From positions 1 through 58,685 of the forward strand of contig JAGOSV010000010.1 of the NCBI GenBank assembly GCA_018062105.1: a stretch of 58,685 nt of DNA, given 5' to 3'. This document shows positions 500 through 23,473 of the stretch, piece by piece. Each line of letters opens with the position of its first letter. Within the stretch, counting starts at the first letter, position 1. The stretch comes from Sterolibacterium sp. (GTDB lineage Bacteria > Pseudomonadota > Gammaproteobacteria > Burkholderiales > Rhodocyclaceae). The notes beneath the pieces are model-generated. The model saw only the letters and a program-made list of their open reading frames with translations. It was not told where the DNA came from and searched no databases. Position numbers and translations under genes: made by a program.

Positions 500-529
500 T
501 TGACATTTGGTTGGTCAACCAATTATGAT
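500..529 (+). promoter_or_regulatory. Sigma-70-type promoter with TetR-type operator
   Basis: TTGACA (500-505) and TATGAT (524-529) are 18 bp apart. The spacer holds the dyad TTGGTTG-GT-CAACCAA (507-522). The same 16-bp core, with the same adjoining TTGACA, lies before the PF10118 gene near 23.4 kb, next to a tetR gene. A repressor bound here would block RNA polymerase at the operon that begins at 588. Confidence 0.8.
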
Positions 530-587
530 TCCGAAATCATACTGGTAAAAAGATCTTTCAGGGCCCGAATCCATAATGGAGAGAATT

Positions 588-1457
588 ATGAATATGACGC
601 CTATCCAGCCTCGCAAGGTTGTTTTTGATGTTACGGCCGTTCCCCGCCACTGGAACGGTGGTGATCCGGTTCTGACCCGCTTTTTTGATGCGCTATCGGT
701 ACATTTTCCTGAGGGCGAGAGATTCTTTATCCAGTCGGTTCGCAGCTTTCAGGATCAGGTAAGGGATGAGCGTTTGCGTGACGATATTCGCCATTTTATC
801 CGTCAGGAAGGCCAGCACGGCATAGTTCATGACAGATTCAACCAGGTGATGGCCGGGCAGGGCGTTGATGTCGAGACGGCCACGGCTAATTTGCGCCGTT
901 TTATTCGTGTCTCACAGAAATACCTTCCGAAAAAATATCAACTGGCGATGACTGCGGCCTTTGAGCACTTCACCGCGACCTTGGGCGAGGCCATGCTCAA
1001 GGAAGATTCCGATATGTTTCGGGACTCAGATCCGGTAATGCGTGCCTTGTTCCTGTGGCATGGAGTGGAGGAAGTGGAACACAAAGCGGTGGCTTACGAT
1101 CTTTATCAGACGGTGGCGGGCGGTGGGTATGTGACGCGCGTATCGGCTCTGGTAGTCGGCACCCTGATGATTCATCTGGTGGTAGCGCCAGTGTTCTGGA
1201 ATATGCTGAAGATGGATGGCGTGACCCGCCAACCCAGAGTGATACTGCGCGGTTTGAATCGCCTTTATGGTCGCCGAGGTATTCTTGTCCGCATGATGCC
1301 GGAGTTTCTTGACTGGTTCCGCCCCGGCTTTCATCCGTGGGAAACCGGGATGCCTGAGAAAGTCGCTGCTTGGCTTGATGAGTATGGTCGTCATGGGGAT
1401 CCGATGCGAGCTTCTGCTGCTGTTTACGACGGCAAGCCTCTGGAGGCGGCGGCTTGA
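588..1457 (+). CDS. PF10118-family metal-dependent protein (copy 1)
   Basis: The family is annotated as a predicted metal-dependent hydrolase (COG3687). The ligand pattern seen here is that of ferritin-like di-iron proteins: E43 in PEGERFF, E74-x2-H77, E126 in FEHFTA and E162-x2-H165. All of these recur in the two paralogues at 8779-9657 and 22472-23410. A hydrophobic stretch follows near residues 180-205. An upstream ATG at 576 is in frame, but GGAGAG overlaps it and is well placed for ATG 588, so 588 is preferred. It is first in a plus-strand operon, directly behind the dyad-bearing promoter, and its stop overlaps the next start (TGATG). The reaction is unknown; an oxygenase or desaturase role is as plausible as hydrolysis (inference). 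Confidence 0.88.
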   Translation: MNMTPIQPRKVVFDVTAVPRHWNGGDPVLTRFFDALSVHFPEGERFFIQSVRSFQDQVRDERLRDDIRHFIRQEGQHGIVHDRFNQVMAGQGVDVETATANLRRFIRVSQKYLPKKYQLAMTAAFEHFTATLGEAMLKEDSDMFRDSDPVMRALFLWHGVEEVEHKAVAYDLYQTVAGGGYVTRVSALVVGTLMIHLVVAPVFWNMLKMDGVTRQPRVILRGLNRLYGRRGILVRMMPEFLDWFRPGFHPWETGMPEKVAAWLDEYGRHGDPMRASAAVYDGKPLEAAA

Positions 1458-2476
1458 TGAAGGTGACCGACGCAGAGATGGAGTCTGACGTCAGCAGTGC
1501 TGCGCCGGTAAGGCAGCGCTGCCACAGGACTGGTGTCCATTGCGGCAGCTCGGCGATACGCGATCTGCTGGAGTTTCATGGACTTGAGATGACCGAGGCA
1601 TTTTGCTTCGGGCTGGGTGCCGGGCTGGGTATCACCTACGTGGAGATTCCTGATTCCGCCACTCCATTCATTGTTCATGTGCGTTCAATGGGCTTTGAGG
1701 AAAAAGTCTTTCACACACTGGGTGTGCCGTTTGCATGGTCAAGCTATCCGGATAAGGGCGCGGCAACAAATGACTTGCATCAAGCGTTGCGTGATGGCGT
1801 GCCTGCATTGCTGCTCACCGACATTTACCACTTGCCCTATTTCGGCAGTAAAACCCATTTTCCGGGTCATGCCATTGTCGCATGGCAGCTGGATGAAGCA
1901 CGTGACGAAGTATTGGTCAGTGATACTGAGCGTCCCGGATTGATCCCTGTGCCGGCAACCAATCTTGCTGATGCGCGCTTTTCAACCTCGCCGCCATTTA
2001 TTCATTACGGAAGCCTGTTTGCCCCGCAGTCGTTGAAGGTGGAAGTCAGTGCGGAGCGGGTGGGAAACGCCATTATTGATAATGCCCGTGCACTGGCAAA
2101 CGGCGGGCCGTATAGCGGTCTGGCCGCACTGGATACCTGGATCGCCTCGTTGCCTCAGTGGCAAGCAAATGACAACTGGCGCTGGTTGTTGCGCTTTGCA
2201 TATCAGGTGATTGAAAAGCGAGGTACCGGTGGTGGTGGTTTCAGGACGATGTATGCCGAGTTTCTGCTCGAGGCTGGCGAGATGCTGCCAGCCGTGCGGG
2301 CTGCGAAACTGGTGGAGCTGATGCAGCGCTCAGCTGCGGCCTGGTCAGGTCTGGCAGCATTACTCAAGATGGCGTCGGAGTCGGATTTGTTTCCCATTCG
2401 TGAAATTGAGGGTGCCATTCGTCATGTCAGGACACTGGAGTCGCAGTATGTTCACCAGGTAATAAGCAGGCTGTAA
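1457..2476 (+). CDS. BtrH_N domain protein with DUF4872-like C-terminus
   Basis: The N-terminal half matches the butirosin BtrH N-terminal domain (PF14399), with VHCGSSAIRDLL placing a likely nucleophilic Cys at residue 29, then CFGLGAGLG and later FPGHAIVAW with a candidate catalytic His. The C-terminal half resembles DUF4872. BtrH itself moves an acyl side chain from a carrier protein to an amine. In this operon the protein could be an acyltransferase or a papain-fold amidase acting on an acyl thioester (inference). The ATG at 1457 overlaps the preceding TGA, which implies translational coupling. The substrate cannot be read from the sequence. Confidence 0.8.
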   Translation: MKVTDAEMESDVSSAAPVRQRCHRTGVHCGSSAIRDLLEFHGLEMTEAFCFGLGAGLGITYVEIPDSATPFIVHVRSMGFEEKVFHTLGVPFAWSSYPDKGAATNDLHQALRDGVPALLLTDIYHLPYFGSKTHFPGHAIVAWQLDEARDEVLVSDTERPGLIPVPATNLADARFSTSPPFIHYGSLFAPQSLKVEVSAERVGNAIIDNARALANGGPYSGLAALDTWIASLPQWQANDNWRWLLRFAYQVIEKRGTGGGGFRTMYAEFLLEAGEMLPAVRAAKLVELMQRSAAAWSGLAALLKMASESDLFPIREIEGAIRHVRTLESQYVHQVISRL

Positions 2477-2547
2477 CGCGTATGCTTCAGTTAGCCGCCA
2501 TGTTGGCGGTCTGGGCTATTGGTTTTTGCATTTGATGAGGGGGAGAA

Positions 2548-3024
2548 ATGATTGCCCAATCCGAGGCCGCAAACCGCTACTTGACCATGGCTAAAACGTT
2601 CTTTGGTACCTCACATCCGTTATTCAACGCGTTCGGAATTGAAGTTGAAGAGATTGGCAAGGGTCGCGCCGTTATGAGGATGCCTTGTCGTGTAGCGTTA
2701 TCTGATCGCAACGGGGGGCTACATCGTGGCGTTGTGGTTACCTTGCTCGATACCACTTGCGGTCTTGCCATATTTTCTCGTCTGGGGGATATGCGACCGA
2801 TTGCAACGATTGATCTGCGTGTGGATTTCATCAGGGAAGCACTTCCGGGTGAGGATGTGCGTGCCGAAGTGGAGTGTTATGCGGTGCAGGGCGATATTGC
2901 CTATGTAAAGGGGAAGGCGGTTGATTGTTCAGATGATTCGCTGTTGGCTTCAGTATCGGGGTCTTTCGCTGTCGGGACACGTGGCCCGGCGTTTGATACG
3001 GCTGTGACGCATGGAGCTGAATAA
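2548..3024 (+). CDS. PaaI-type hotdog thioesterase
   Basis: A 158-residue single hotdog domain with the 4HBT pattern (GRAVMRMPC, NGGLHRGVVVTLLDTTCGLA). In such enzymes the HGG-type loop and the following acidic residue serve the acyl-CoA thioester; here the loop reads LHRG instead of FHGG. A GGGGAG ribosome site precedes ATG 2548. It overlaps the next hotdog gene by 14 bases. The role is probably release or editing of acyl-CoA in the same catabolic operon. The substrate is unknown. Confidence 0.85.
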   Translation: MIAQSEAANRYLTMAKTFFGTSHPLFNAFGIEVEEIGKGRAVMRMPCRVALSDRNGGLHRGVVVTLLDTTCGLAIFSRLGDMRPIATIDLRVDFIREALPGEDVRAEVECYAVQGDIAYVKGKAVDCSDDSLLASVSGSFAVGTRGPAFDTAVTHGAE

Positions 3025-3463
3025 AGTGACCGCGTATGGAGCCGAGCCACGAGCAACCGAATGTACCGGGTTGAGTGAACTGCAGAAGCAAGTTCTTGAA
3101 GGTACACCCTATTTGCATTTCCTAGGTCTTGGGGTCAGCCGCGAAGATGACGGCACTGTCTGTTATCAATTGTGTTTCCGCGAAGAGCATATTGGCAACC
3201 CGCTTCTACGCACTTTTCATGGCGGCATTCTTGCGAGTTTTGGCGAAGTCGCTGCCTCCTTGCATGTGGTGGAAGAGACCGGGATGCAGAAGCAGCCATT
3301 GTGTACCAGTTTGACGTTTGATTACCTGCGACCGGCCTTTGCCGGAACGATTCGTGCTGTGCCTCTAATCGTGCGTGCGGGCCGGCGTTTTATTGTCGTC
3401 TCTGTCGATATTTTTCTGGATAAGACTCATGTCTCAATGGGGCGTTTTATCTACGCACGCTGA
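3011..3463 (+). CDS. PaaI-type hotdog thioesterase, second copy in tandem
   Basis: A 150-residue hotdog protein with the loop TFHGGILASFGEVAA followed by LTFDYLRPA, both typical of PaaI/YigI-like thioesterases. It starts inside the end of the preceding thioesterase gene. The pair may form a hetero-oligomer, because tandem hotdog proteins often do (known of the fold; here inference). The two copies are clearly divergent, so this is not a recent duplication. Confidence 0.85.
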   Translation: MELNKVTAYGAEPRATECTGLSELQKQVLEGTPYLHFLGLGVSREDDGTVCYQLCFREEHIGNPLLRTFHGGILASFGEVAASLHVVEETGMQKQPLCTSLTFDYLRPAFAGTIRAVPLIVRAGRRFIVVSVDIFLDKTHVSMGRFIYAR

Positions 3464-3509
3464 TGACGTTTTATTCATCTGGCATGTTTAGGCTGTCAAG
3501 GAGGTTGAT

Positions 3510-5060
3510 ATGTTCATTTCCCAGACACTTCGTCGGGCGGCCCAGCTGAACCCGAATGGTGTGGCCACAGTCTACGCTAATAGGAAGCAAAGCTGGTATG
3601 AGTTTGAGAAACGGGTAGCTTGTCTGGCAGCCGGCGTTCGCTCACTGCGAGTTGCTAATGGCGATCGTATAGCAATTCTTTCACTCAATAGCGATCGTTA
3701 CCTGGAATATTTCTTTGCCATACCTTGGGCAGGGATGGTGCTCAACCCAATTAATATCAGACTGGCACCGCCTGAGATTGCCTATGCGATAAATGACTCC
3801 CAGTCATCGGTTCTGTTCGTTGATGATGCGTTCAGTGCGATGCTGCCGATCCTGCGACCATTGATGGAAAGCGTCAGTCATGTGGTGTTCATGGGTGAAG
3901 GTGACTTGCCGGAGGGTTGTATCGCTTATGAGTCGCTGATCGACCAGAACAAACCCATGGCCGATAAGAGCGAAGGTGGTGCGCAGCTTGCCGGCCTGTT
4001 CTATACCGGCGGCACGACCGGGCGATCAAAGGGCGTTATGCTGAGCCACGACAATCTTGTGTTTAATGCCCTGAACGTTGTCCCGGAAATGGGTTACGGA
4101 TCTGACACCATCTATATGCATGCAGCGCCGATGTTCCATCTGGCCGACATGGCAAGTACCTTTGCCGTAACCATGGCTGGTGGCACCCACGGTATTGTGC
4201 CGCGTTTCGATGTGGGTGATGTGCTGTCGTTCATTGAGCGTGAAAAAATCACCCATACATTGCTAGTGCCAACCATGATCAACCTGCTGGTGTCTTCTGG
4301 AAAGATAAGCAATTTTGATGTCAGCAGCGTCAGGCGAATGCTTTATGGTGCATCGCCGATGCCTGAAGCAGTGTTGATCAGTGCCATGGAGCAGATGCCA
4401 GATGCTCATTTTGCTCAAGGGTATGGGCAGACAGAGGCGTCGCCGATTATTACTGCGCTGGCGCCAGATTTTCATGTACCGGGCGGCGCCAAGCTACGTA
4501 GTGCTGGCAGGGCAGCACTGGGCGTCGAAGTTGCCATTATGGACAAGGATGATGTCGAGCTACCGCGTGGTGAGGTAGGTGAGATATGCGCCAGAGGTCC
4601 GAACGTAATGCTGGGCTATTGGGGGATGGAACAGGCGTCTGCCGAGACGTTGCGCAATGGCTGGCTGCATACCGGTGATCTCGGCTATATGGATAAAGAC
4701 GGGTTTGTTTTTATCGTTGATCGTGCCAAGGACATGATCATCAGTGGCGGAGAGAATATTTTCTCGGTTGAGGTAGAGGGTGCGATCTACAGCCATCCCG
4801 CGGTGCAGGAATGTGCGGTTGTGGGGATTCCCCACAACGAGTGGGGTGAAATGGTTCATGCGATTGTCGTTCTAAAGGAAGGGCATGGTCTCAATCAAGG
4901 CGAGCTTCTGGCCCATTGCCGTGCGCTGATTGCCGGGTACAAGTTGCCGCGAAGCATCGAGTTTCGTCGCGAGCCGCTGCCGGTAAGTGGTGCCGGCAAG
5001 ATTCTCAAGAACGAACTGAGGTGGCCTTATTGGGAAAACAAAGACCGTGGGGTCAACTGA
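3510..5060 (+). CDS. AMP-forming acyl-CoA synthetase, FadD-like
   Basis: Activates a carboxylic acid to acyl-CoA through an acyl-adenylate. The 516 residues carry all the usual motifs: P-loop YTGGTTGRSKGVMLSH, YGQTEASP, GDLGYMDKDGF with the hinge DRAKDMIISGGENI, and the C-terminal catalytic lysine in SGAGKILKNELR. Length is normal for medium/long-chain acyl-CoA ligases of this class. AGGAGG lies 5 bases before ATG 3510. Next to an acyl-CoA dehydrogenase and a GMC oxidoreductase, it probably feeds the oxidised substrate into beta-oxidation. The chain length accepted cannot be told. Confidence 0.92.
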   Translation: MFISQTLRRAAQLNPNGVATVYANRKQSWYEFEKRVACLAAGVRSLRVANGDRIAILSLNSDRYLEYFFAIPWAGMVLNPINIRLAPPEIAYAINDSQSSVLFVDDAFSAMLPILRPLMESVSHVVFMGEGDLPEGCIAYESLIDQNKPMADKSEGGAQLAGLFYTGGTTGRSKGVMLSHDNLVFNALNVVPEMGYGSDTIYMHAAPMFHLADMASTFAVTMAGGTHGIVPRFDVGDVLSFIEREKITHTLLVPTMINLLVSSGKISNFDVSSVRRMLYGASPMPEAVLISAMEQMPDAHFAQGYGQTEASPIITALAPDFHVPGGAKLRSAGRAALGVEVAIMDKDDVELPRGEVGEICARGPNVMLGYWGMEQASAETLRNGWLHTGDLGYMDKDGFVFIVDRAKDMIISGGENIFSVEVEGAIYSHPAVQECAVVGIPHNEWGEMVHAIVVLKEGHGLNQGELLAHCRALIAGYKLPRSIEFRREPLPVSGAGKILKNELRWPYWENKDRGVN

Positions 5061-5107
5061 ATGACTTTTGAAAACGGCGCTCGATGGCAAGCAAGAGGTG
5101 ATAAACC

Positions 5108-6576
5108 GTGAATCTGGATTTCACTCGGGAAGAGCGGGAGTTTCAGCAATCAATTCGCAGCTGGATGCGGGAAAATGTTCAGGATGATATCAAGCGTTCC
5201 TCGGCGCTTGGTGAAATGCTCGCTAAAGAACAACAGCAGAAGTGGGAACGTTTGCTCGGTAAACAGGGCTGGCTGGCACTGACGTGGCCGAAACAGTATG
5301 GCGGGCCAGGCTGGACGGCGACACAGCGTTATATTTTTGATCTGGAGCGAGCCATGGCAGGCGCCCCCCGACAAGTCCGTTCGGCGTGTCGATGGTCGGG
5401 CCGGTGCTTTATAACTTTGGCTTTCAGGAGCAAAAAGATCGCTGGCTGCCAGGTATCGTCAGTGGTGAAACCCTCTGGTGTCAGGATTACTCCGAGCCCA
5501 ATGCCGGTTCGGATCTGGCGTCCCTGAAGACTCGTGCAGAGCGCAAGGATGACCATTATCTAGTGAATGGCCAGAAGATATGGACGACGCAGGCCCACTG
5601 GTCGGACATGATGTTTTGTCTGGTCAGAACCGATCCGACGGTCAAGCAGCAGAACGGGATTTCTTTTCTGCTGATTGATATGAAAACACCTGGCATCGAG
5701 GTGCGGCCGATCTACTCGATTGACGGCCATCATCATCTTAACGAGGTTTATTTCACCGATGTGCGGGTGCCGCTCGAAAATCTTGTGGGTCAGGAGGGCA
5801 TGGGATGGACTATTGCCAAGTTCCTGCTGACGCACGAGCGTACCACCATCGCCGGCGTAGCGGATAGTCATCACGAGATATCACGACTGAAGAACGCTGT
5901 GGAGGAATCGCCGGGCTTTCTGGACAAAAGTCAGGCTCGGCTTCGTATCGCCGAGCTTGAAATCGAATTGATGGCGCTGGAGTACACTAACTTCCGTACC
6001 GTTGCCGCGACTGATGAGGGCAGGCCCTTAGGGCCGGAATCATCCGCTAACGTCCTGTTTGATGATGTCGATATTACAGACGGGATGATACTCGCCTGTG
6101 GCGAGAAAGCCGAGCAAGCGCTGAGCAGGTTGCTAGCTTATCTGCGCGTGCTCGACTGCGCGCGGATGTATGGCGCCGCTGGCGCGCTGTACCGGCGCAC
6201 CCTGGAATATGCCAAAACGCGAAAGCAGTTTGGTGTAGCCATCGGTAGCTTTCAGATAATTCAGCACTACCTGGTGGATATGTTCATCGATCTCCGGCAG
6301 CTCGAGTCAATGCTGTTTATGGAGGCCGTCAAGGCGGAGTCCGAAGATGTCTCCCAGCGTGAGCGCGCCAGTACGGCCGCGAAAGCCTATTATGCGGACA
6401 AGGCGGTACGCATCGCGCAGCAGGCGATCCAGATTCATGGCGGGATTGGCGTTACCGAGGAGCTTGATATCGGCCACTACTTTCGTCTGATCACCCACTG
6501 TTCATTGACCCATGGTGACCGTGCTCACCATATAAAGAGTTTTTCCCGGCTTGACGAGGTGCATCAGGGTGAATAA
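5108..6576 (+). pseudogene. Acyl-CoA dehydrogenase, frameshifted and chimeric
   Basis: Translation from GTG 5108 gives a normal N-terminal ACAD domain until MAGAP. The frame is then lost in a run of six C (about 5364-5369) and resumes as TSPFGVSMVGPVL; one extra C would restore it. The protein then reads as subunit A of a paired ACAD (YSEPNAGSDLASL, HERTTIAGV, MALEYT) to RPLGPESS. It continues at about 6045 with NVLFDDVDI, TRKQFGVAIGSFQ and IQIHGGIGVTEE, which belong to the C-terminal part of subunit B. The joined length, about 489 residues, lacks the A C-terminus and the B N-terminus. An in-frame deletion between two adjacent genes is the simplest reading. The frameshift could be a sequencing error; the fusion is harder to explain so. 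Confidence 0.82.
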
Positions 6577-8173
6577 TCGTGAATTTGACTTCATCATTGT
6601 AGGTGCTGGCTCGGCGGGCTGTGTGCTGGCAAACAGGCTTAGTGAAGGTGGCCGTTATACAGTTTGCCTGATTGAAGCCGGGCCCCATGATAACAGTGGC
6701 TTTGTCAATATCCCGTTCGGGCTGATCGGGCTAATCAAGGAGGGTAAGCGTAACTGGGGCTATAATACCGCTCCTCAGAAAGCCCTGCTTGAGCGACGAC
6801 TTTACTGGCCAAGAGGGAAAACCCTCGGCGGTAGCAGTTCGATCAATGCCATGGTGTATATCCGCGGGCAACATCACGATTACGAAAGCTGGGAAGATGC
6901 GGGGGCAAAGGGCTGGGGCTGGGAGGATGTGCGGCCGATATTTACTGCCCATGAAAATAACGAGCAGTATCCGGTAGATGCCTGGCATGGTCGGGGCGGT
7001 CCACTGAACGTTACTCGTGTACAGGACCCCAACCCGTTGACCGAGCTTTTCATTCGTGCTGGTCAGGAACTAGGTGAGCCGCGGAATGATGATTTCAATG
7101 GTGAAAATCAGCGCGGGTTTGGCCGTTTTCAGGTAACACAGAAGGAAGGACGGCGCTGGAGTGCGGCGCGAGCGTTTCTCGATCCTGCGAAGGGCCGGGA
7201 GAACCTCTGCATCATGACTGATACGCTGGTCACCCGGGTTCTGCTAAGTGGCGACCGGGCCAAGGGAGTCGAGTACATTGATCAGCAGGGTATAACCTGT
7301 GTACTAACTGCCAATCGTGAAGTGATTCTTTGCGGTGGCGCGATCAATTCACCCCAGTTGCTGATGCTCTCCGGTATAGGAGATCGTGATCATTTGAAAA
7401 GCGTCGGGGTTGCTTGCCATATCCACCTTCCGGCGGTTGGTCACAACCTTCAGGATCACCTGGATATGACGGTTTCGATTCATGACAGTAGCAGACAGGC
7501 TATTGGTTTCTCGCCATACTTTCTGCCGCGGTTGATACGTGCCTTCTATGATTACTTTCGCCATCGGCGGGGGCTTCTTGCCAGCAATGCCGCTGAAGCC
7601 GGGGCTTTTTTCAATGTCGGGGGAGGTGATCGCCCGGACGTTCAACTGCATTTCCTGCCGACTTTCCTGCGTGATCATGGCAGGGAGTTGACGTCGGGTT
7701 TCGGTTGTACCATCCATGTGTGTCAGTTGCGGCCGAAGAGCAGGGGCTTCGTCCGCCTGTCCGATAGTGATCCGCGCAGTGCGCCCTTGATTGACCCCTG
7801 TTATTTTTCCGATAGTGATGACATCCGGGTGTTACGGGAGGGTGTGAAGTTGGCTCGCAGAGTGTTCCGTACCGAGGCTTTTGCTTCTATCTTTGGCGGC
7901 GATGACCTGCCTGCCACGGAAGTGGTGACCGATGAGCAGATTGACGCGGATATACGCCAGCGTGCGGAATCCATCTACCATCCGGTGGGAACCTGCCGCA
8001 TGGGCGAGGACGAGCTGGCTGTGGTGGACAGCCGGTTGCGGGTCAGAGGAGTATCCGGGTTGCGCGTCGCCGATGCGTCCGTCATGCCGCTGTTGATCAG
8101 TGGCAATACCAACGCTGCCTGCATGATGATTGGCGAGAAAGCTGCCACCTATGTGCTTGAGGACAAAGCCTGA
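6569..8173 (+). CDS. GMC-family FAD-dependent alcohol dehydrogenase
   Basis: Oxidises a primary or secondary alcohol, like choline dehydrogenase or AlkJ. The N-terminal Rossmann motif is IVGAGSAGCVLANRLSE. GMC signature 1 (RGKTLGGSSSINAMVYIRG) and signature 2 (GGAINSPQLLMLSGIG) are both present, and the C-terminal YHPVGTCRMG with SGNTNAACMMIGEKA supplies the catalytic His/Asn region. A longer reading begins at TTG 6551, but GTG 6569, overlapping the dehydrogenase stop, puts the FAD motif at the usual distance. It is the last gene of the plus-strand operon. A paralogue is at 16101-17756. Confidence 0.92.
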   Translation: MNNREFDFIIVGAGSAGCVLANRLSEGGRYTVCLIEAGPHDNSGFVNIPFGLIGLIKEGKRNWGYNTAPQKALLERRLYWPRGKTLGGSSSINAMVYIRGQHHDYESWEDAGAKGWGWEDVRPIFTAHENNEQYPVDAWHGRGGPLNVTRVQDPNPLTELFIRAGQELGEPRNDDFNGENQRGFGRFQVTQKEGRRWSAARAFLDPAKGRENLCIMTDTLVTRVLLSGDRAKGVEYIDQQGITCVLTANREVILCGGAINSPQLLMLSGIGDRDHLKSVGVACHIHLPAVGHNLQDHLDMTVSIHDSSRQAIGFSPYFLPRLIRAFYDYFRHRRGLLASNAAEAGAFFNVGGGDRPDVQLHFLPTFLRDHGRELTSGFGCTIHVCQLRPKSRGFVRLSDSDPRSAPLIDPCYFSDSDDIRVLREGVKLARRVFRTEAFASIFGGDDLPATEVVTDEQIDADIRQRAESIYHPVGTCRMGEDELAVVDSRLRVRGVSGLRVADASVMPLLISGNTNAACMMIGEKAATYVLEDKA

Positions 8174-8235: not shown

Positions 8236-8649
8236 TCAGGCAATGCGATAGATCATTGTGCCATTGGCGATCAGCTTGCCTGAAGCTTTCTCCCGAATCG
8301 AGACCTCCGAGAAAATCAGCTCTCGCCCGCGTTTTACCGCATTCGCAGTAGCTATGATGTCCTTGCCCAGCGCTGCGGCAAGATAATTCACGGTCATGGA
8401 TACGGTAGCTGCCTTCATGCCGTTTTTCGGGTCATGGCCGGACCAGGCCGCTAGGGCACCGGTCAGATCCAGCAGGCTGCTGATGGCGCCGCCGTGGAAG
8501 GCGTTGCCGCCACCAGCCAGATCATCGCGGTATGGCAGGCAAACAACGGCCCGGTCGGTGACGACATCGACGATTTCGATGCCAAGCAGCTTCTGAAAAG
8601 GGACATTGGGAAACATCTGGATAAGCGAGTCAACCAGCGATTCGGTCAT
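8236..8649 (-). CDS. PaaI-type hotdog thioesterase
   Basis: A 137-residue hotdog thioesterase with NAFHGGAISSLLDLTGALAA, the HGG loop plus the catalytic acidic position, and VSMTVNYLAAA. AAGGAG lies before the ATG. It is the last gene of the minus-strand operon that runs from the alpha/beta hydrolase at about 13.0 kb. It likely hydrolyses an acyl-CoA intermediate; the substrate is unknown. It is the third hotdog protein in the island. Confidence 0.88.
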   Translation of the reverse strand: MTESLVDSLIQMFPNVPFQKLLGIEIVDVVTDRAVVCLPYRDDLAGGGNAFHGGAISSLLDLTGALAAWSGHDPKNGMKAATVSMTVNYLAAALGKDIIATANAVKRGRELIFSEVSIREKASGKLIANGTMIYRIA

Positions 8650-8711
8650 GCGTTACTCCTTGATGGTCGAGAGTAATATGGCTCTCGAGCAGCATATAAG
8701 TGCTGGCGATA

Positions 8712-8763
8712 CCGGGGCTTTGCCAGAAACATCAATATACAGGATGAATGTGGCAAAGCCCGG
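8712..8763. repeat. Long imperfect inverted repeat
   Basis: CCGGGGCTTTGCCA at 8712-8725 pairs with TGGCAAAGCCCGG at 8751-8763 with one bulged G and a 25-base loop. It lies between the PF10118 gene and the thioesterase gene of one operon. It may attenuate or process the transcript between them, or be a remnant of an insertion; the sequence alone does not decide. Confidence 0.5.
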
Positions 8764-8778
8764 GGTTTGCATTACAAG

Positions 8779-9657: not shown

Positions 9658-9692
9658 TGCGAGACTCCGTAGTTCATAACCGAAATGAAAAG

Positions 9693-14302: not shown

Positions 14303-14352
14303 ACCGGCGTGGAATCACTATCCGAGCATAAGTTATTCGCAGGAGAGAGAAG

Positions 14353-14673: not shown

Positions 14674-14688
14674 GTATTGGAGAACGCC

Positions 14689-16104: not shown

Positions 16105-17756
16105 GTCGTCCGAGCGGAGTGGCGTCCGAACACTTCGATTATGTGGTGGTCGGCGCGGGCTCGGCGGGGTGTGCAGTGGCCAACCGCCTGTCTGAGAGCG
16201 GTCACTATTCGGTGCTGCTGCTCGAGGCCGGTCCGGAGAGCCGCCGCAACCCTTTCGTGAACATGCCGCTGGGTTTCCTGCAGCTGATGTTCAGCCGTCG
16301 TTTCAACTGGCAGTTCAATACCGAGCCGCAGCGTCACATGCATGACCGTTCGCTGTTCCAGCCGCGGGGCAAGATGCTTGGCGGCTCCAGTGGCATGAAC
16401 GCGCAGGTCTACATTCGTGGGCATGCCTGGGACTACGACGAATGGGCGCGGCTGGGTTGCGAGGGTTGGTCGTACGCAGATGTGTTGCCGTACTTCCGCA
16501 GATCCGAACATTTCGAGCCGAAGTTGACGCCGGGTGAGGCAGAGTTTCATGGCCAGGGTGGCCCGCTCAATGTGGCCGAGCGTCGCTATACCAATCCGCT
16601 GAGTACGGCGTTCGTCGAGGCGGCGATGCAGGCGGGGCACCGGCGCAATTTGGATTTTAACGGAAGTGAGCAGGAAGGCGCGGGCTTCTACTACGCTTAT
16701 CAGAAGGACGGCGCGCGCTGCAGTAATGCGCGCGCCTATCTCGAACCTGCCGCAGGGCGTTCCAACCTGACGGTCCGCAGTGGCGCGCACGTTACCCGTG
16801 TGTTGTTCGATGGCACCCGCGCTACCGGTGTCGAGTACCGCAGCGCGAAGGGGCTGGTGCAGGTCCGTGCCGGGCGCGAGGTTGTGCTTTGCGGCGGGGC
16901 GTTCAACTCGCCGCAACTGCTGATGCTATCCGGCATTGGTCCGCGTGAGGAACTGTCCCGGCACGGCATCGAATTGCGTCATGCGTTGGAGGGGGTTGGG
17001 CAGAACCTCCAGGATCATATCGACGTGTTCATGCGCGTCAGAGCGCGCAGCCGTCAGAGCATCTCGATGCACCCGAGCTACTGGCTCAAGGGTCTGGGGG
17101 CCCTGCTGCAATACCTGAGCGGTCGGGGCGGCGTGTTGTCGAGCAATGGCGCCGAGGCCGGCGGGTTCATCCGCTCCCGGCCAGAGGAGCCGATACCCGA
17201 CCTGCAACTGCACTTTGGGCCAATGCTGTACGCCGATCATGGGCGAGACATGAAGACCGCAATGAGCGGTTATGGCTACATAGTCATGATCTACGGGCTC
17301 AGGCCATTGTCGCGCGGCCGGATTGGTTTGCACAGTGCCGACCCGTTCGCGGCGCCGCTGATCGACCCCAATTACATGGCTGAGCCCGCCGACGTCGAGC
17401 AACTGGTTCGCGGGGTGCATCTGGTGCGAAGGATACTGGCGCAGCCGGCCTTCGCCCCGCACCACGAGGTCGAGATGTCGCCCGAGCCAGCGCTGCAGAA
17501 TGACGACGACCTGGCTGCATGGGTGCGGCGCAGCGGTGAGTCGGCATATCACCCTGTCGGCACCTGCAAGATGGGCGTCGATTCGATGGCGGTGGTCGAT
17601 TCGCGCCTGCGTGTATATGGACTGCAATGTCTGCGGGTGATTGATGCCTCCATCATGCCAACGCTGGTCGGCGGTAACACCAATCAGCCGGCGACCATGA
17701 TCGGCGAGAAGGGCGCCGCGATGATGCTTGAGGATGCCGAGACCTCCGGCGGCTGA
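16101..17756 (+). CDS. GMC-family alcohol dehydrogenase (AlkJ-like)
   Basis: Oxidises the alcohol made by the P450 to the aldehyde; an AlkJ-type GMC enzyme stands at this place in the Alcanivorax CYP153 operon. 551 residues: FAD motif VVVGAGSAGCAVANRLSE, GMC signatures RGKMLGGSSGMNAQVYIRG and CGGAFNSPQLLMLSGIG, catalytic region YHPVGTCKMG and GGNTNQPATMIGEKGA. The start shares ATGA with the P450 stop. Base composition is noticeably more GC-rich than in the copy at 6569-8173, which points to separate origins of the two paralogues. Confidence 0.93.
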   Translation: MSRPSGVASEHFDYVVVGAGSAGCAVANRLSESGHYSVLLLEAGPESRRNPFVNMPLGFLQLMFSRRFNWQFNTEPQRHMHDRSLFQPRGKMLGGSSGMNAQVYIRGHAWDYDEWARLGCEGWSYADVLPYFRRSEHFEPKLTPGEAEFHGQGGPLNVAERRYTNPLSTAFVEAAMQAGHRRNLDFNGSEQEGAGFYYAYQKDGARCSNARAYLEPAAGRSNLTVRSGAHVTRVLFDGTRATGVEYRSAKGLVQVRAGREVVLCGGAFNSPQLLMLSGIGPREELSRHGIELRHALEGVGQNLQDHIDVFMRVRARSRQSISMHPSYWLKGLGALLQYLSGRGGVLSSNGAEAGGFIRSRPEEPIPDLQLHFGPMLYADHGRDMKTAMSGYGYIVMIYGLRPLSRGRIGLHSADPFAAPLIDPNYMAEPADVEQLVRGVHLVRRILAQPAFAPHHEVEMSPEPALQNDDDLAAWVRRSGESAYHPVGTCKMGVDSMAVVDSRLRVYGLQCLRVIDASIMPTLVGGNTNQPATMIGEKGAAMMLEDAETSGG

Positions 17757-17759
17757 GAG

Positions 17760-17866
17760 CCGCGTGCGGGGTGTCGCGGGGCGCGGTTGACATCACCGTG
17801 CCAGCCGACCTTGTGCTCGTCTCGGTTGGCATTTTCCTGAACAATCCGATCCCAAGGCACAGCTAA
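17760..17866 (+). pseudogene. Fragment of a second ferredoxin reductase
   Basis: Translation gives RVRGVAG in one frame and then DITVPADLVLVSVGIFLN followed by NPIPRHS and a stop in another. This matches the stretch before the second dinucleotide motif in reductases of this family, as in RVAGVMLANGGTLPADIVLV of the intact gene at 17878. It is too short to function. It suggests that the reductase originally in this place was deleted and that the present one was joined on, or that a tandem copy decayed. Confidence 0.6.
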
Positions 17867-17877
17867 AGAGAGAGGCT

Positions 17878-19110
17878 ATGGTAAACAAACGGAAAGAGAC
17901 CACAGTCATCGTTGGCGGCGGGCACGCAGCAGGTGCGCTCCTGACAACCTTGCTGCAAAAAAAATATCAACATGAGGTGGTTCTGGTGGGCGAAGAACCC
18001 CATCCACCATATCAGCGACCGCCTTTGTCCAAGAATTACCTGGCAGGAGATGTTGATCAGGAGTCGCTGTACCTGAAGCCGCGCTCGGTGTACGAGAAGG
18101 CTGGCCATCAGTTGCGGCTCGGTGTGCGCGTCGAACAAATTGATCGAGACAACAAGACCATCAGCTTGTCGGACCAGAGCACGTTGAAATACGATCGACT
18201 GGTCTTGGCCACGGGCTCACACGTCCGACGTCTGAAAGCGCCCGGGGCTGACTTGAAAGGCATTCATTATCTGCATGACATAGCTGACACAGATGCCCTG
18301 CGTGAACAATTAGTCCCGGGGAAGAGTCTGGTCATTGTGGGTGGCGGTTTTATCGGCCTTGAGGTGGCTGCCAGCGCTATCAAAAAAGGCGTTAATGTCA
18401 CGGTGCTGGAAGCCGCAGAGCGTCTTATGCAGCGCGTTACGGGCCCGGAGATGTCGGCGTTCTTTTACGCCAAACACAGTGGCGCTGGCGTGGATGTACG
18501 CCTGAACACAGCGGTAACCGGCTTTGAAGCGGATGATCAGGGTCGTGTGGCTGGCGTGATGTTGGCGAATGGAGGCACTTTGCCGGCCGATATCGTGCTC
18601 GTCTCGATCGGCGTCATACCGGAAACCACTTTGGCTGAGGTCGCCAGCCTGCCCTGTGATGACGGTATTGTTGTCGACGAGTTTACCCGCACCGGCGATC
18701 CCGCCATCCTGTCGATTGGCGACTGTACCCGTCACCGGAATCTTTTCTTCGAGAAGATGCAACGGCTTGAGTCTGTCGCCAACGCTGTCGATCAAGCTCG
18801 TACTGCGGCGGCGACTCTGATGGGAGAGGAGAAACCTTACGATAGCGTCCCATGGTTCTGGTCGAACCAGTATGACGTACGCCTGCAGATGGTGGGGTTG
18901 TCGCAAAATCATGATCAGCGTGTGATGCGCGGCAGCCCCGAGGATAAGGAATTTGCGGTGTTCTATCTCCGCGAGGGCTGTGTCATTGCTGTTGACGCGG
19001 TCAATCTGCCCATTGCTTTCATGGTCGGCAAGCAGCTGGTCCAGCACCGCAAGAGCGTCAGCGCTGAAGCATTGAGTGATTCGGGTACCGATTTGAAGTC
19101 TCTGGTCTGA
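17878..19110 (+). CDS. NAD(P)H-dependent ferredoxin reductase
   Basis: Supplies electrons to the [2Fe-2S] ferredoxin for the P450. 410 residues with two Rossmann motifs (VIVGGGHAAGALL and VIVGGGFIGLEVAAS), the FAD motif LSIGDCT and a reductase C-terminal domain, as in putidaredoxin and rhodocoxin reductases. AGAGAGG precedes ATG 17878. It is the last gene of the CYP153 operon. Its end overlaps, tail to tail, the end of the minus-strand monooxygenase gene by 53 bases; such a long convergent overlap could give antisense interference. Confidence 0.92.
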   Translation: MVNKRKETTVIVGGGHAAGALLTTLLQKKYQHEVVLVGEEPHPPYQRPPLSKNYLAGDVDQESLYLKPRSVYEKAGHQLRLGVRVEQIDRDNKTISLSDQSTLKYDRLVLATGSHVRRLKAPGADLKGIHYLHDIADTDALREQLVPGKSLVIVGGGFIGLEVAASAIKKGVNVTVLEAAERLMQRVTGPEMSAFFYAKHSGAGVDVRLNTAVTGFEADDQGRVAGVMLANGGTLPADIVLVSIGVIPETTLAEVASLPCDDGIVVDEFTRTGDPAILSIGDCTRHRNLFFEKMQRLESVANAVDQARTAAATLMGEEKPYDSVPWFWSNQYDVRLQMVGLSQNHDQRVMRGSPEDKEFAVFYLREGCVIAVDAVNLPIAFMVGKQLVQHRKSVSAEALSDSGTDLKSLV

Positions 19111-20668
19111 AATATGCTCCCGTATCTTTGCTCTTCAGGAACAAGTAATTGTCCATTGGCAGGTGCTTCGCCCGCCACAGCATCTCCACCGAGGTCGAGG
19201 GGCGAAGCATGGGCGCGTCGCCATGGTGGTCGAAATAATAGCTGTTGGAGAGTGCGCAGTTGTGGTTGAGAAACACGGTGTTCTGCTGACGTTGCTGAAT
19301 GTTCTGAAAGTAGCGGTCATGCACGATCTGCCGGATTTCCACCCGGGTTGCCTTGCGCCGGTGGGCCTCGCGGATGCAGCGTGAAAGATGAATGGCATTT
19401 CCCTCTACCATCTTGAAGTAGGAGGTACCAATCAGTGCATAGGGGCCGAGCATGATGTAGAAGTTCGGGTACCCCGGAATGGTCAAGCCTTCGTAGGCCT
19501 GATAGCGGTTATCGTGCCAGAACTGGCCGAGATCAACACCATTGCTTCCGATCAGCTCGAATGAGGGGATATTGCCCTTTTCGAAGGTCTTGTAGCCGGT
19601 GGCAAGCACCAGTACATCAATGCGTCGCGACTTGCCGTCACTGGTGGTGATGCCCTGTCGGGTGATGCGACGGATGGGCGTGGTGACCAGCTCGACACTG
19701 TCACGAGCGAACGTTGTGAAGTACTCGTTGGAAAAGGTGGGCCGTTTGCAACCAAAGCCATAGGCCGGGCTGAGTTTTTCCCAGAGATCCTGTCTGCCGG
19801 GGAGTTGTTTTCGCATATTGTCGAGTGCGGCCTTCTCGCAGGCGCGCACTATCCAGGGGGCCTGACGGTAGTAGATCGCCGACAGTACCATCAGGGTTTC
19901 GCTGGCCACGTCGGTTATGCCGCGAACACCACCTTGCAGGGCGGGTAAGGCACGAAACAGGCTTTTCAGCCAGCCGGGCAATATCCGGTCCGGTTTTTTC
20001 AGAACCCAGATCGGGGTGCGCTGATAGACATCAAGCTGTTTCGCTTGACGGGCGATCTCCGGAACCAGTTGCACGGCGGTGGCGCCGGTGCCGATGACGG
20101 CAACACGCTTGCCCGTCAGGTCCATGCCTTCAGGCCAGCGGGCAGTGTGGATAATTTCTCCCTCGAAGGCGTCAAGACCTTCGATGTCAGGCAGCTTGGG
20201 TGAGATCAGCCCGCCGCAGGCGGAGATCAGATGTCGGCCGCGCAATGTCTCGCCACTCGCCAGGCTGACTACCCAGAGATTGTTTTCCGTGTCGAATTGC
20301 GCCCGTTCCACCTCAACGCCGAAGCGGATATGGCGGTAGATGCCATATTTGGATGACACCCGCCGGGTGTATTGATACAGCTCGTTGCCCGGAGCGAACA
20401 CTCGTGACCAGTTAGCATTCTGCTCGAACGAAAAAGAGTAGGTAACCGAGGTGATGTCCACGGCAATGCCGGGATAGCGATTGTCACGCCAGGTGCCACC
20501 GACATCATTGTCACGCTCAAGAATCAGGATGTCGTTGACGCCGTCTGCTTTGAGCTGGATGGCGGCACCGATGCCGGAGATGCCGGCGCCGACAATAATC
20601 ACCTCGTGATCAGGAGGAACAGGAGGATGGTGCCGGGTCTGATCGGCAGTGAAAGCAGTCATGTTCAT
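19058..20668 (-). CDS. Flavin-dependent monooxygenase, Baeyer-Villiger type (second)
   Basis: 536 residues with IIVGAGISGIGAA (about 24-36), the fingerprint FEGEIIHTARWPE (168-180) and the NADPH site VIGTGATAVQ (191-200). It is clearly a different subgroup from the enzyme at 10578-12080, which argues for a different ketone substrate. Its ATG shares ATGA with the stop of the esterase gene. It is the last gene of the outer minus-strand operon. The last 17 codons lie over the end of the ferredoxin reductase gene. Confidence 0.9.
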   Translation of the reverse strand: MNMTAFTADQTRHHPPVPPDHEVIIVGAGISGIGAAIQLKADGVNDILILERDNDVGGTWRDNRYPGIAVDITSVTYSFSFEQNANWSRVFAPGNELYQYTRRVSSKYGIYRHIRFGVEVERAQFDTENNLWVVSLASGETLRGRHLISACGGLISPKLPDIEGLDAFEGEIIHTARWPEGMDLTGKRVAVIGTGATAVQLVPEIARQAKQLDVYQRTPIWVLKKPDRILPGWLKSLFRALPALQGGVRGITDVASETLMVLSAIYYRQAPWIVRACEKAALDNMRKQLPGRQDLWEKLSPAYGFGCKRPTFSNEYFTTFARDSVELVTTPIRRITRQGITTSDGKSRRIDVLVLATGYKTFEKGNIPSFELIGSNGVDLGQFWHDNRYQAYEGLTIPGYPNFYIMLGPYALIGTSYFKMVEGNAIHLSRCIREAHRRKATRVEIRQIVHDRYFQNIQQRQQNTVFLNHNCALSNSYYFDHHGDAPMLRPSTSVEMLWRAKHLPMDNYLFLKSKDTGAYFRPETSNRYPNHSMLQR

Positions 20669-21633
20669 GCAACAGCCTCCTGCGTGGTCGATGGTGTGTG
20701 CAAGTCACCGGATCCGGCACGGTGGTTGGGTAGATCGTTATGCCGTCGATTATCCAGACGGGACTGCATAAAGCGGATTATTTTGCGTGTATCCTGACGG
20801 GCTTCTGGCAGCAGCAGGAAAATTGGCCAGATGTGGGGCATGTCCTGTCGCGATAGCAGCGTGACCGGCACCCCCGCATGACGCGCTTGTTCGGCAACGA
20901 CATAGGCATCATCTCGCAGGCATTCCTCTTCACTTACCGTCAGCATCAATGGTGGCAGACCCCGATAGTCTCCCCGCGTCGGGGATGCGTAGGGATGGAA
21001 CGGATCGGCACCTTGCAGGTAGATCCTGACGGCGCCATCGATCATCACCCGTGAAAGCATCGGGTCGCTCTCATTATTGGCATCCCGGGACATCAACTCG
21101 CCGGTAGCGTCAGCGCCTGGTGAAATGGCTACGGCACACACCGGCATGGACAGTTGCTCGTCGCGGGCACGCAGTAACGTTGCCAGGGTCAGGTTGCCGC
21201 CGGCGGAATCGCCGGCCACGATCAGCGGCAGGGATTCTTCGATCAGCTCGCTGTACGCGGCAAAGGCATCATCGGTTGCCGCCGGGAAAGGGTGCTCCGG
21301 TGCCAGTCGGTAATCGGCGAGAAAAATGCGGGCGTTGAGTGCCTTCGTCAGCGTGCCGCAGAAGTGGTGATAGGTATCCAGACGACCGCCCACGAAAGCC
21401 CCTCCATGGAGGAACAGTATGGTCGCCGCAGGATGGGCGGTACTCAACCACTGGCCGGGTACATCGGCCACGCGGCCATGGCGCAGACTGACGCCGCGGG
21501 GGATCACCGAAGGCATCAGCGGGGCATTCATGACCATGCGTAAATGACGGACCAGATGATCGGGGTCCTGAATATCGCGCTTCATGATCGCGCGGAACAG
21601 GGGCTTGATGATTCTTGCAGGGAGTGATGCCAT
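20665..21633 (-). CDS. Alpha/beta hydrolase, HSL-type esterase
   Basis: 322 residues of the hormone-sensitive-lipase family. HGGAFVGG forms the oxyanion hole, GDSAGGN holds the nucleophile Ser, and the Asp and His lie near SEEECLRDD and QDMPHIWP. The frame extends to TTG 21651, but AAGGAG lies 6 bases before ATG 21633, so 21633 is taken. It lies between an SDR and a Baeyer-Villiger-type monooxygenase. It likely cleaves the ester formed by the latter. Confidence 0.9.
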   Translation of the reverse strand: MASLPARIIKPLFRAIMKRDIQDPDHLVRHLRMVMNAPLMPSVIPRGVSLRHGRVADVPGQWLSTAHPAATILFLHGGAFVGGRLDTYHHFCGTLTKALNARIFLADYRLAPEHPFPAATDDAFAAYSELIEESLPLIVAGDSAGGNLTLATLLRARDEQLSMPVCAVAISPGADATGELMSRDANNESDPMLSRVMIDGAVRIYLQGADPFHPYASPTRGDYRGLPPLMLTVSEEECLRDDAYVVAEQARHAGVPVTLLSRQDMPHIWPIFLLLPEARQDTRKIIRFMQSRLDNRRHNDLPNHRAGSGDLHTPSTTQEAVA

Positions 21634-21647
21634 GAGAGTCTCCTTGA

Positions 21648-22475
21648 TCAATTGGCCAGCAGGCGATAGGCCTCGCCAACGGTACGGGCATACAGGCGCG
21701 GCATCAGTCGTTTGAAACGCCAGGCGAGGCGCCCATCGATTTGCGGCAGCATGTAAAGCTCACCACGATCCAGCGCATCAAGTGTTTGTCGGGCTACCTT
21801 GTCGGCGGTGGTCAGGGCGAAGCGCGTCATGGCGGACCGCGCAAACTCGCGGCGCTTTTCCGGTAGCTTGCCGTCGTTGACGATGTTGGTGGGTACCACG
21901 GTTGGGCACAGTGCCGTGACTCTCACGCCGGTGCCGGTAAGCTCAGCAGCCAGGGTTTCCGAGAGCGCCAGTACACCGGCCTTGGTGACGTTGTAGGTGC
22001 TCATTTCCGGCGCTGCACCGAAAGCAGCGGCGGAAGCGACATTAATGATGCCGCCATAGCCAAGATCCCGAAGTTTCGGCGCGAAGAAATGGCAGCCGTG
22101 GATCACGCCCCAGAGGTTGACGTTCATACACCATTGCCAGTCTTCCAGTGACACCGCGCCGATTGGCCCGCCGAGACCCACGCCTGCATTGTTGATCACC
22201 AGAGTCACCGGACGGCCGAGCAGTTTCTCGGCCTCATCGCTGAGGGCTTCCATCTGCTTCGCATCGCCCACGTCACAGCGATAGGCAATTGCCTGGCTGC
22301 CGAGGGCCTGCAGGCTTGCGACGACCTGCTCGGCTCTCTCTTCATTGATGTCGACGCAGATCACCGCACCGCCACGACGAGCCAGCTCGTAGGCAAAGCT
22401 GCGGCCAATGCCGCTGCCAGCTCCGGTGACGACAGCGGCTGCATTGCGAGAAGGTGGTAAGGGTTGTTTTTTCAT
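21648..22475 (-). CDS. SDR-family oxidoreductase
   Basis: 275 residues of the classical SDR fold: VTGAGSGIGRSFAYELA, an NAD-type acidic residue in CVDINEE, NNAGVGLGGPIGA, INVASAAAFG and the catalytic YNVTK. It shares an ATGA overlap with the PF10118 gene before it. It probably oxidises a secondary alcohol to a ketone for the monooxygenase at 19058-20668. It is similar in kind to 9693-10550, so both minus-strand operons carry an SDR, a hydrolase and a Baeyer-Villiger-type enzyme. Confidence 0.9.
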   Translation of the reverse strand: MKKQPLPPSRNAAAVVTGAGSGIGRSFAYELARRGGAVICVDINEERAEQVVASLQALGSQAIAYRCDVGDAKQMEALSDEAEKLLGRPVTLVINNAGVGLGGPIGAVSLEDWQWCMNVNLWGVIHGCHFFAPKLRDLGYGGIINVASAAAFGAAPEMSTYNVTKAGVLALSETLAAELTGTGVRVTALCPTVVPTNIVNDGKLPEKRREFARSAMTRFALTTADKVARQTLDALDRGELYMLPQIDGRLAWRFKRLMPRLYARTVGEAYRLLAN

Positions 22476-23410
22476 GAGAGTCCCTCAGGCGGGTGCGCAA
22501 CTGTACGGAGACCTGTCCGGATACCGGGCTGGTGTTTGACCAGTGCCTCGAATGCCTTGTGGGTGTCGCCGGTCTGCTCGTAGGCGCGCTTCCAGATCCT
22601 GATGGTCTCCCGATTGTCATCGTCCCAAGGATGGAAGGTTGGCGAGAAATAAGGGAAGACACCTGCCAGCACTTTGGAAAGAATGCCGGGCTTGACGAAC
22701 AGCACCTTGAGCATATGCGTCGCCGAACGCAGATTGAGGAGCTGTTTGTCTCTATAGAGCAAAAACGCCTGATTTCCGATCATGATTGGAAAACCGAGCG
22801 AGATGGCCAGCATCATGCCACTGATGCGCAACCGGTAACTGCGCAGACCGCCGCCGCTTGCGTCGACGAACACATCGAAACTGACACTCTTGTGCTCGGT
22901 TTCCTCGACGAAGTGCCAGTACAACATGGCACGTAATTCAGGATGTGTTTCGTCGAAAAGTTCCGGGTGCTCCAGCAACACCGAGGAAATGATGGCGGTG
23001 AAGTGCTCGAACGCCGCGGCGATGGAGCTTTGCATGTCATCGCTCAGGCGATGCTGGAGTTCCTTGCGAATGAGCTTGAAGGTGGCTTCGACCTGGTCAA
23101 TAGGGACGCCCTGCTGTAAGCAAATGGCATTCATCTCGTCATGCTCGCGGGCGTGAATGCGCTCCTGACGGATGAACTCGCCAGCAGCCTTGCGCACTTC
23201 CGGGTCACGCAATTTGTCGAGTTGTCGGCGGGCCGAGTTCATCACCCAGCGCTCGCCATCCGGAACGGCCGCCAGAATGGCGTTCATCCAGTGCGTGCAC
23301 CAGGGGTCGTTGTTGAACCAGTGACGGGTGACCGTCTCACGGTTCATCGAAAAGTGGAGGTCACGCGTTACAACCTCGCCGTAACCGATCTTACGATTTG
23401 CCAGGGCCAT
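22472..23410 (-). CDS. PF10118-family metal-dependent protein (copy 3)
   Basis: 312 residues. The ferritin-like ligand set is again complete: PDGERWVMNS, RQERIHAREH (E-x2-H-x3-H), FEHFTAIISS and VEETEHKSVSFD. A hydrophobic segment follows (ISGMMLAISLGFPIMI). It is first in its operon, with a TTGACA/operator promoter 34-63 bases upstream that is nearly identical to the one before copy 1. Function is unknown; co-occurrence with a monooxygenase, an SDR and an esterase suggests an oxidative step on a hydrophobic substrate (inference). Confidence 0.87.
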   Translation of the reverse strand: MALANRKIGYGEVVTRDLHFSMNRETVTRHWFNNDPWCTHWMNAILAAVPDGERWVMNSARRQLDKLRDPEVRKAAGEFIRQERIHAREHDEMNAICLQQGVPIDQVEATFKLIRKELQHRLSDDMQSSIAAAFEHFTAIISSVLLEHPELFDETHPELRAMLYWHFVEETEHKSVSFDVFVDASGGGLRSYRLRISGMMLAISLGFPIMIGNQAFLLYRDKQLLNLRSATHMLKVLFVKPGILSKVLAGVFPYFSPTFHPWDDDNRETIRIWKRAYEQTGDTHKAFEALVKHQPGIRTGLRTVAHPPEGLS

Positions 23411-23443
23411 TTGGATTCTCCCGCTATAGCGACCATGGCAATC

Positions 23444-23473
23444 AACGTAATTGGTTGGTCAACCAAATGTCAA
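23444..23473 (-). promoter_or_regulatory. Sigma-70-type promoter with TetR-type operator
   Basis: On the minus strand TTGACA (23473-23468) is followed 18 bp later by TACGTT. The spacer holds the dyad TTGGTTGACCAACCAA (23466-23451). From GATTGACATTTGGTTG onwards this is almost base for base the promoter at 500-529, apart from the two central bases. The tetR gene starts 170 bases away in the other direction. Confidence 0.8.

Follow-up and report, generated by a model that had tools for sequence, protein, structure and literature searches.

A TetR-family regulator and a conserved 16-bp dyad predicted to control three catabolic operons on an island of Sterolibacterium sp.

We analysed a stretch of 58,685 nucleotides of Sterolibacterium sp. 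(GenBank assembly GCA_018062105.1, contig JAGOSV010000010.1), which is called the window below. It contains an island with three catabolic operons, A, B and C, and a gene for a TetR-family regulator (23644-24267, plus strand; domains TetR_N and TetR_C_24). Sequence comparison suggests that this regulator represses all three operons through a 16-bp dyad at their promoters. We put the probability of this reading, predicted binding and release by an acyl-CoA included, at about 0.8.

Operator A, TTGGTTGGTCAACCAA, lies at 507-522. The same dyad recurs exactly at 23451-23466 as operator C (TTGGTTGACCAACCAA when read toward operon C), where the sequence-only reading had placed it. Both dyads are situated between a TTGACA and a -10-like hexamer and start one base past the -35. 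Promoter A (500-529, plus strand) consists of TTGACA at 500-505, an 18-bp spacer and TATGAT at 524-529. Promoter C (23444-23473, minus strand) consists of TTGACA at 23473-23468, an 18-bp spacer and TACGTT at 23449-23444. In each of them the operator is inside the spacer. The flanks match as well, since 498-525 and 23448-23475 are 93% complementary across 28 nt, i.e., they form an inverse-orientation repeat. Operator A is kept before operon A in relatives, where the layout of promoter A is repeated, for example as TTGACA-17-TATAAT in L055. Operator C is also located 177 bp upstream of tetR (the distance was measured in the identical relative L035). The degenerate third copy that had been described before the middle operon is present too. 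This operator B (13083-13098) has two mismatches to TTGGTTGNNCAACCAA and is overlapped by the perfect repeat CAACCAAG/CTTGGTTG at 13070-13077/13082-13089; siblings carry a perfect dyad at the same position. It is immediately preceded by promoter B (13099-13127, minus strand), with TTGCCA at 13127-13122, a 17-bp spacer and TATTAT at 13104-13099. All three promoters are putative and were assigned from the consensus.

We determined how frequently such sites occur by chance. In the window, TTGGTTGGTCAACCAA at up to three mismatches gave 6 strand-matches versus 0.35 expected, and 0 of 100 shuffles reached 6; the 7-2-7 form at up to two mismatches gave 3 matches versus 0.22 expected. When the promoters (150-162 bp each) were shuffled, the A match and the C match were each reached in 0 of 20,000 shuffles. 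The draft genome of the organism itself (2.79 Mb in 156 contigs, 88.5% complete) contains the exact 7-2-7 dyad only at operators A and C. At the two-mismatch level it has 4 further matches (operator B, C3, C95 and C121), versus 4 for the reversed dyad pattern used as a control in the genome scans. In an order-wide sample of 300 genomes, our own (G000) and 299 others, the exact dyad was found in 2 of the 299, and the reversed control gave 1; neither of these two sites has an island gene within the 1.5 kb fetched per side. Chance origin was rejected on the basis of the window expectation, the promoter shuffles and the rarity in the order.

Near-exact sites (at most one mismatch) were then counted in 28 genomes, our own and 27 reached via TetR loci. 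The scan found 65 places in 59 clusters, and the reversed control gave 16 hits in total. Manual assignment of the clusters to gene sets linked 48 of them: 13 before A, 14 at the B position (one of which, G311 C37:8424, includes N bases), 6 before C, 4 before a FadL gene and 11 upstream of a Marinobacter-type tetR. A linked site is present in 26 of the 28 genomes. The 11 unlinked sites (G305, two in G307, two in G308, G310, G311, G315, G318, G321 and G323) have no adjoining island gene, and we treat them as background. Among 100 distinct contexts upstream of interior genes, cypR, the P450 and the ferredoxin reductase, none has a match at up to three mismatches; a contig-edge row (the P450 upstream of L174) was excluded. 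The sequence-only reading had proposed a search of the genome and its relatives near PF10118 or Baeyer-Villiger monooxygenase (BVMO) genes, and had named a dyad both common and unrelated to these genes as its refutation. The scans did not find this: the exact dyad occurs in 2 of 299 genomes in the order and only at A and C in the genome of the organism itself, and 48 of 59 near-exact sites are linked in TetR carriers. The interpretation given in that reading is thus largely supported.

Transposase genes flank the island, and the dyads could accordingly be ends of a mobile element, or else terminator hairpins, instead of operators. However, no T-run follows them, and they lie in or beside consensus promoters, at near-fixed distances from the start codons and with unrelated flanks in distant relatives. 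Given the promoter placement, the near-fixed distances and the missing T-run, both origins were rejected as hardly credible.

The dyad is conserved together with the regulator. Of 136 loci with TetR relatives 80 were kept, and the neighbourhoods of 65 (L035-L099) were mapped. Relatives with 51-100% identity are paired with the dyad or a TTGG-N8-CCAA variant, which stands ahead of the same operons or of related ones, in Moraxellaceae, HdN1, Alloalcanivorax, Marinobacter, Limnobacter and on Acinetobacter plasmids; the pairing is retained even at 51-59% TetR identity. G300 and G301 have perfect dyads at all three places, at distances of 53 bp (A), 37 bp (B) and 40 bp (C) from the respective start. 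G303 also has them at three places (C was measured in L038, B taken from its position beside cypR, and A placed by contig coordinates only). Rearranged islands retain dyads: before A and C in Paraperlucidibaca (L053), and before A and B in Alloalcanivorax (L149, L175, L176). In the set of 30 distinct A, B and C contexts, from which N-containing contexts, short upstreams and weak starts were excluded, 16 have at most one mismatch, and TTGG-N8-CCAA is kept in 27 when the best register is taken, a slightly favourable choice. At distant A promoters the flanks differ and the operator is constant.

Among 36 loci of the Marinobacter/Limnobacter type, whose TetR is about 55-65% identical over the best piece, 31 have a dyad with at most one mismatch 117-130 bp upstream of tetR, frequently extended to TTGGTTGGTTAACCAACCAA; these loci are largely near-identical and hold 8 distinct 16-mers. 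A divergent thioesterase pair usually adjoins, with an alpha/beta hydrolase after it in the two annotated plasmids. Two Acinetobacter plasmids (TetR 51-53%) carry TTGACAT-TTGGTCAATCGACCAA, a TTGG-N8-CCAA variant, before PF10118-tetR-BtrH-4HBT-4HBT. In HdN1 and its relatives (G305, G311, G324 and G325, and G306 at two mismatches) a further dyad heads a FadL/TodX-type gene; for G324 and G325 the link consists solely of agreement in the upstream sequence and the first codons. In L148 (5921-9013), L160 (5162-8287) and L157 (8213-11335) the FadL/TodX gene is followed, in the operon headed by the dyad, by a gene for a protein of 1030-1041 residues with bacterial Ig-like domains, a possible surface partner in hydrocarbon uptake. 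Two other observations concern individual loci. In L035, positions 15157-15172, beyond the island, carry TTGGTTGGGTGACCAA, a dyad with two mismatches; in the related L174 this sequence stands between a TTGACA and a possible start codon, and it may be a further target. In L063 (Marinobacter denitrificans) a second TetR paralogue with 50% identity (16987-17484) is found about 6 kb from the first.

The middle site differs from the other two in its geometry, because the operator directly follows the -10 and thus covers the start region instead of the spacer. Among the distinct B contexts, TTGCCA occurs in 5 of 5 and TATTAT 17 bp further on in 4 of 5, with the operator directly after. The B promoters of four loci examined outside the promoter-context set vary: TTGCCG in L149 and L175, no clear match in L154, and TTGCCA with TATAAT in L160. 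To judge from the sequence, the C promoters of L050-L053 may share the B geometry. The degenerate state of the site here, and the end of cypR some 120 bp upstream of it in the same orientation, would fit a decayed operator and a regulation confined to A and C in this genome; operon B would then be expressed constitutively or by read-through from cypR. We consider this possible but rather doubtful. The position and the promoter are kept, and in the siblings G300, G301 and G304 a perfect dyad stands 37 bp before the B hydrolase. Moreover, a TTGGTTGGTTGGCCAA-type site is also present at the A promoter of L092/L094 and at the C promoter of L039. A perfect dyad is likewise kept at the B position beside cypR in L038 and L156; L156 starts with the acyl-CoA-ligase end that is also seen in L038. 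The expected place of operon B is occupied in L038 by a DDE transposase (954-2022), and the perfect B operator persists there beside cypR. We regard the position of the B site as settled, since siblings carry the perfect dyad there.

A number of observations weigh against control of all three operons by TetR through the dyad. The sites are kin by descent and transfer, so that the counts are non-independent, and the 28 scanned genomes were selected as TetR carriers; one of them (G313) lacks any site within one mismatch, and another (G321) has only an unlinked one. In the window itself, operator B with its two mismatches was matched by 41 of 20,000 shuffled promoters, so that taken alone it is only moderately unlikely, and it may bind weakly, and the -10 of promoter C (TACGTT) is weak. 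Of the 14 B-position sites, 2 (G302, G303) have no adjoining operon B, and the Alloalcanivorax C promoters match only at four mismatches. Five of the 36 Marinobacter/Limnobacter-type loci depart from the rule: the site has two mismatches in L062 and L087 and three in L065, and in L077 and L085 it is closer to tetR. The 300 bp before tetR hold no site in L040, L042-L049, L053, L055, L056 and L091 (best 5-6 mismatches). Autoregulation of tetR through the shared C operator is possible, but it is apparently not general, because several relatives have no site near tetR.

The regulator was identified as a member of the TetR family by its helix-turn-helix domain (PF00440, E 2.4e-13), its all-helical ligand domain (PF17932, E 1.9e-27) and fold, and a palindromic operator conserved together with it. 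It had been called the only TetR of the island, and this holds: the second TetR_N match in the window (51563-52186) lies beyond the transposons, outside the island, where it precedes HlyD-type and AcrB-type efflux genes (region 51563-56582). Genome-wide there are 9 TetR_N matches, 2 of them in the window, and the regulator is the only TetR_C_24 match. In the AlphaFold model (mean predicted local distance difference test score, pLDDT, 84.7) the helix-turn-helix helices are at 36-42/47-53. Foldseek placed PfmR (1.5e-11), 'PfiT', AibR, KstR2 and FadR nearest to the model; two of these structures contain CoA thioesters, AibR with isovaleryl-CoA and FadR with stearoyl-CoA. By sequence, the best PDB match is 'Transcriptional regulator I2' (4mxm, 1.5e-28). 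A Bacillus-type FadR equivalog was rejected, as the score against NCBIfam NF053878 is 70 bits, below the cut-off of 200. The recognition helix of the dyad clade reads LPGSL[HY]YRY, versus a QSGSLFYHF type in most relatives of 35-43% identity. In the flanks of such relatives (29 loci, about 1.5 kb on each side) no site better than three mismatches was found.

Another island regulator might bind the dyad in place of TetR. The obvious candidate is CypR, of the AraC family, which adjoins operon B and is often near TetR. However, its own upstream and that of the P450 lack the dyad: all 15 distinct contexts of cypR and all 22 of the P450 show at least four mismatches. AraC-type regulators usually bind direct repeats, which also counts against it. 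In addition, TetR loci in which no cypR was found within the fetched flank (L070, L075, L076, L078, L082, L086 and L088) still carry the dyad. CypR as the binder is therefore very unlikely, and we rejected it on account of its dyad-free upstream and these loci. The position of the dyad next to the -35 at A and C could also mean that TetR activates, or that it has a dual role, and some members of the family do activate. We give this only a small chance, as the sites lie in the spacer or just past the -10, where a bound protein would block the polymerase.

We therefore keep to repression by TetR, for which the following mechanism can be proposed. A TetR dimer would bind the 16-bp dyad TTGGYTG-N2-CRRCCAA. 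At A and C this dyad occupies the -35/-10 spacer; at B it comes straight after the -10 and spans the likely start site. In these positions a bound repressor would keep RNA polymerase off all three promoters. An acyl-CoA derived from the substrate would lift the repression; such an inducer is plausible from the resemblance of the modelled fold to CoA-binding regulators, and the fact that fold resemblance is its whole basis counts against this part. Release would jointly increase the expression of three modules, two of the Baeyer-Villiger type and one for acyl-CoA activation/beta-oxidation, each with one PF10118 protein. In the Baeyer-Villiger modules a short-chain dehydrogenase/reductase (SDR), the BVMO and a hydrolase would presumably convert an alcohol to a ketone, an ester, and finally an acid and an alcohol. 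The P450 hydroxylase operon would answer to CypR.

Operon A (plus strand) begins with a PF10118 gene (576-1457; 'metal-dependent hydrolase', possibly a ferritin-like diiron protein) and continues over 1454-8173. It contains BtrH_N/DUF4872 (1454-2476), two 4HBT thioesterases (2548-3024 and 3011-3463), an acyl-CoA ligase (3510-5060), an acyl-CoA dehydrogenase fusion or remnant (5108-6576) and a GMC oxidoreductase (6551-8173). The acyl-CoA dehydrogenase stretch (window 5060-6576) is about 0.8 kb shorter than in the sibling G300, where the pair is intact. Here two neighbouring genes appear to have been merged by a deletion, plus a frameshift, and this step may therefore be impaired in the window. 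Operon B (8236-13044, minus strand) consists of an alpha/beta hydrolase (13044-12061), a BVMO (12092-10578), an SDR (10550-9693), a PF10118 gene (9657-8779) and possibly a 4HBT gene (8649-8236). Operon C (19058-23410, minus strand) consists of PF10118 (23410-22472), an SDR (22475-21648), an Abhydrolase_3 gene (21651-20665) and a BVMO (20668-19058). The type I BVMO fingerprint is FxGxxxHxxxW(P/D). Both enzymes have it (FKGDVIHPQQWP in B, FEGEIIHTARWP in C), with two Rossmann motifs, GxGxx[GA], each. The BVMO of operon C matches cyclohexanone and phenylacetone monooxygenases in PDB, the former at 2.1e-65.

The three operons had been said to carry the same kinds of genes. This is true of PF10118, which all three have; otherwise the sharing is only partial. 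Operons B and C have PF10118, SDR and BVMO in common (27-33% identity), in a different gene order, and each has an alpha/beta hydrolase, but from different Pfam families. Operon A has no BVMO; it shares PF10118 with B and C, and 4HBT with B only if 8236-8649 belongs to B. Paralogues among the operons are 27-39% identical. Thus the operons are alike in theme and are not copies of each other, as far as their sequences tell. Similarly, a modular ketone/ester pathway describes the Baeyer-Villiger modules B and C, but not A, an acyl-CoA/thioesterase/GMC module, and the cargo varies in other genomes, where it includes thioesterases with an alpha/beta hydrolase, or a FadL-type porin.

PF10118 is the sole family surely common to all three operons. 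The genome of the organism has exactly three PF10118 matches, all in the island and one per operon (576-1457, 8779-9657 and 22472-23410). In 13 aligned sequences, E48, E78xxH81, E130 and E166xxH169 are invariant, and these residues sit on four helices of the model (pLDDT 86.5). The E/ExxH/E/ExxH pattern resembles ferritin-like diiron proteins. In Pfam the operon A copy has an AurF match at 8e-4, under the cut-off of that family. Among the Foldseek matches listed, most are helical diiron proteins, namely R2-like oxidase, AurF and ribonucleotide reductase R2, but all E values are worse than 1e-3; no sequence relative was found in PDB (best E 0.37). The label 'predicted metal-dependent hydrolase' is doubtful, and as a lead PF10118 may be a diiron protein.

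The centre of the island (13163-19110) is of the CYP153 type. It contains cypR (13163-14302, minus strand), beside the P450 operon, and, on the plus strand, the P450 (14677-16104), a GMC gene (16101-17756) and a ferredoxin reductase (17878-19110). CypR scores 608 bits against NCBIfam NF053784 (cut-off 500) and thus belongs to this equivalog. We take the P450 to be a CYP153 by context, following the sequence-only reading; no family call names it. The separation of the three-operon regulon from this AraC-controlled operon, which had been postulated, is supported by the dyad-free upstreams of the region. An HTH_Tnp_1 transposase remnant (window 126-362) abuts operator A, and resolvase, Tn3 transposase and IS66 transposase genes come after the island (window 28654-33828). 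With these genes on its flanks, the island looks mobile.

Among known systems, AibR, FadR (Bacillus), PfmR and KstR2 are likened to the regulator by fold and not by operator, with about 20-33% identity. The CypR-CYP153 system of Alcanivorax and Dietzia has its counterpart in the CypR equivalog and P450 operon of the island centre, but this is a separate circuit. The mymA operon includes SDR and lipase-like genes. It is induced from one promoter via VirS, an AraC-type regulator, whereas on the island a TetR dyad precedes three operons, and PF10118 genes are present. In mycobacteria mymA is a BVMO operon of seven genes (PMC13234193). AlkX of Dietzia sp. DQ12-45-1b (alkW1-alkX) is described, in the portions of two reports compared, as a TetR-family alkane repressor whose repression is reduced by fatty acids (PMC8784404, PMC12472514). 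It resembles the regulator proposed here as a TetR-family repressor in alkane catabolism, but it controls an alkB-type operon in an actinobacterium through a longer-than-typical operator; description, not sequence, sets it apart. In Thalassolituus oleivorans MIL-1, a BVMO and an esterase were proposed for subterminal long-chain alkane oxidation, with no regulator or operator in the passages compared (PMC6304351). Among the open-access papers listed we recognised none on the island TetR, its dyad, or PF10118 in such a setting; subscription journals are mostly outside this search, and absence is unproven. The regulon, which the sequence-only reading called undescribed, is so within this scope.

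In a wider reading, which we put forward tentatively and with somewhat less than even confidence, TetR and TTGG-N8-CCAA form a portable pair on mobile islands and plasmids across several hydrocarbon-degrader genera, PF10118 being a new diiron oxygenase family. The cargo would change between PF10118/BVMO modules, thioesterase-hydrolase operons and a FadL/TodX uptake operon, and the pair would keep its control over genes for long-chain substrates.

What is described here is a probable catabolic regulon of the TetR-family kind. Its operator is unusually clear, its setting looks mobile, and the genes that it carries vary. In the parts of the literature compared, hydrocarbon breakdown through the Baeyer-Villiger (subterminal) and acyl-CoA branches is described in terms of enzymes and without a regulator; our analysis offers a concrete candidate regulator, operator and target list for these branches. 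It also draws attention to PF10118, which is present in three copies, one per operon, and is possibly misnamed. The conserved operator is a search handle for more pathway genes, and it has already led to the FadL/TodX operon.

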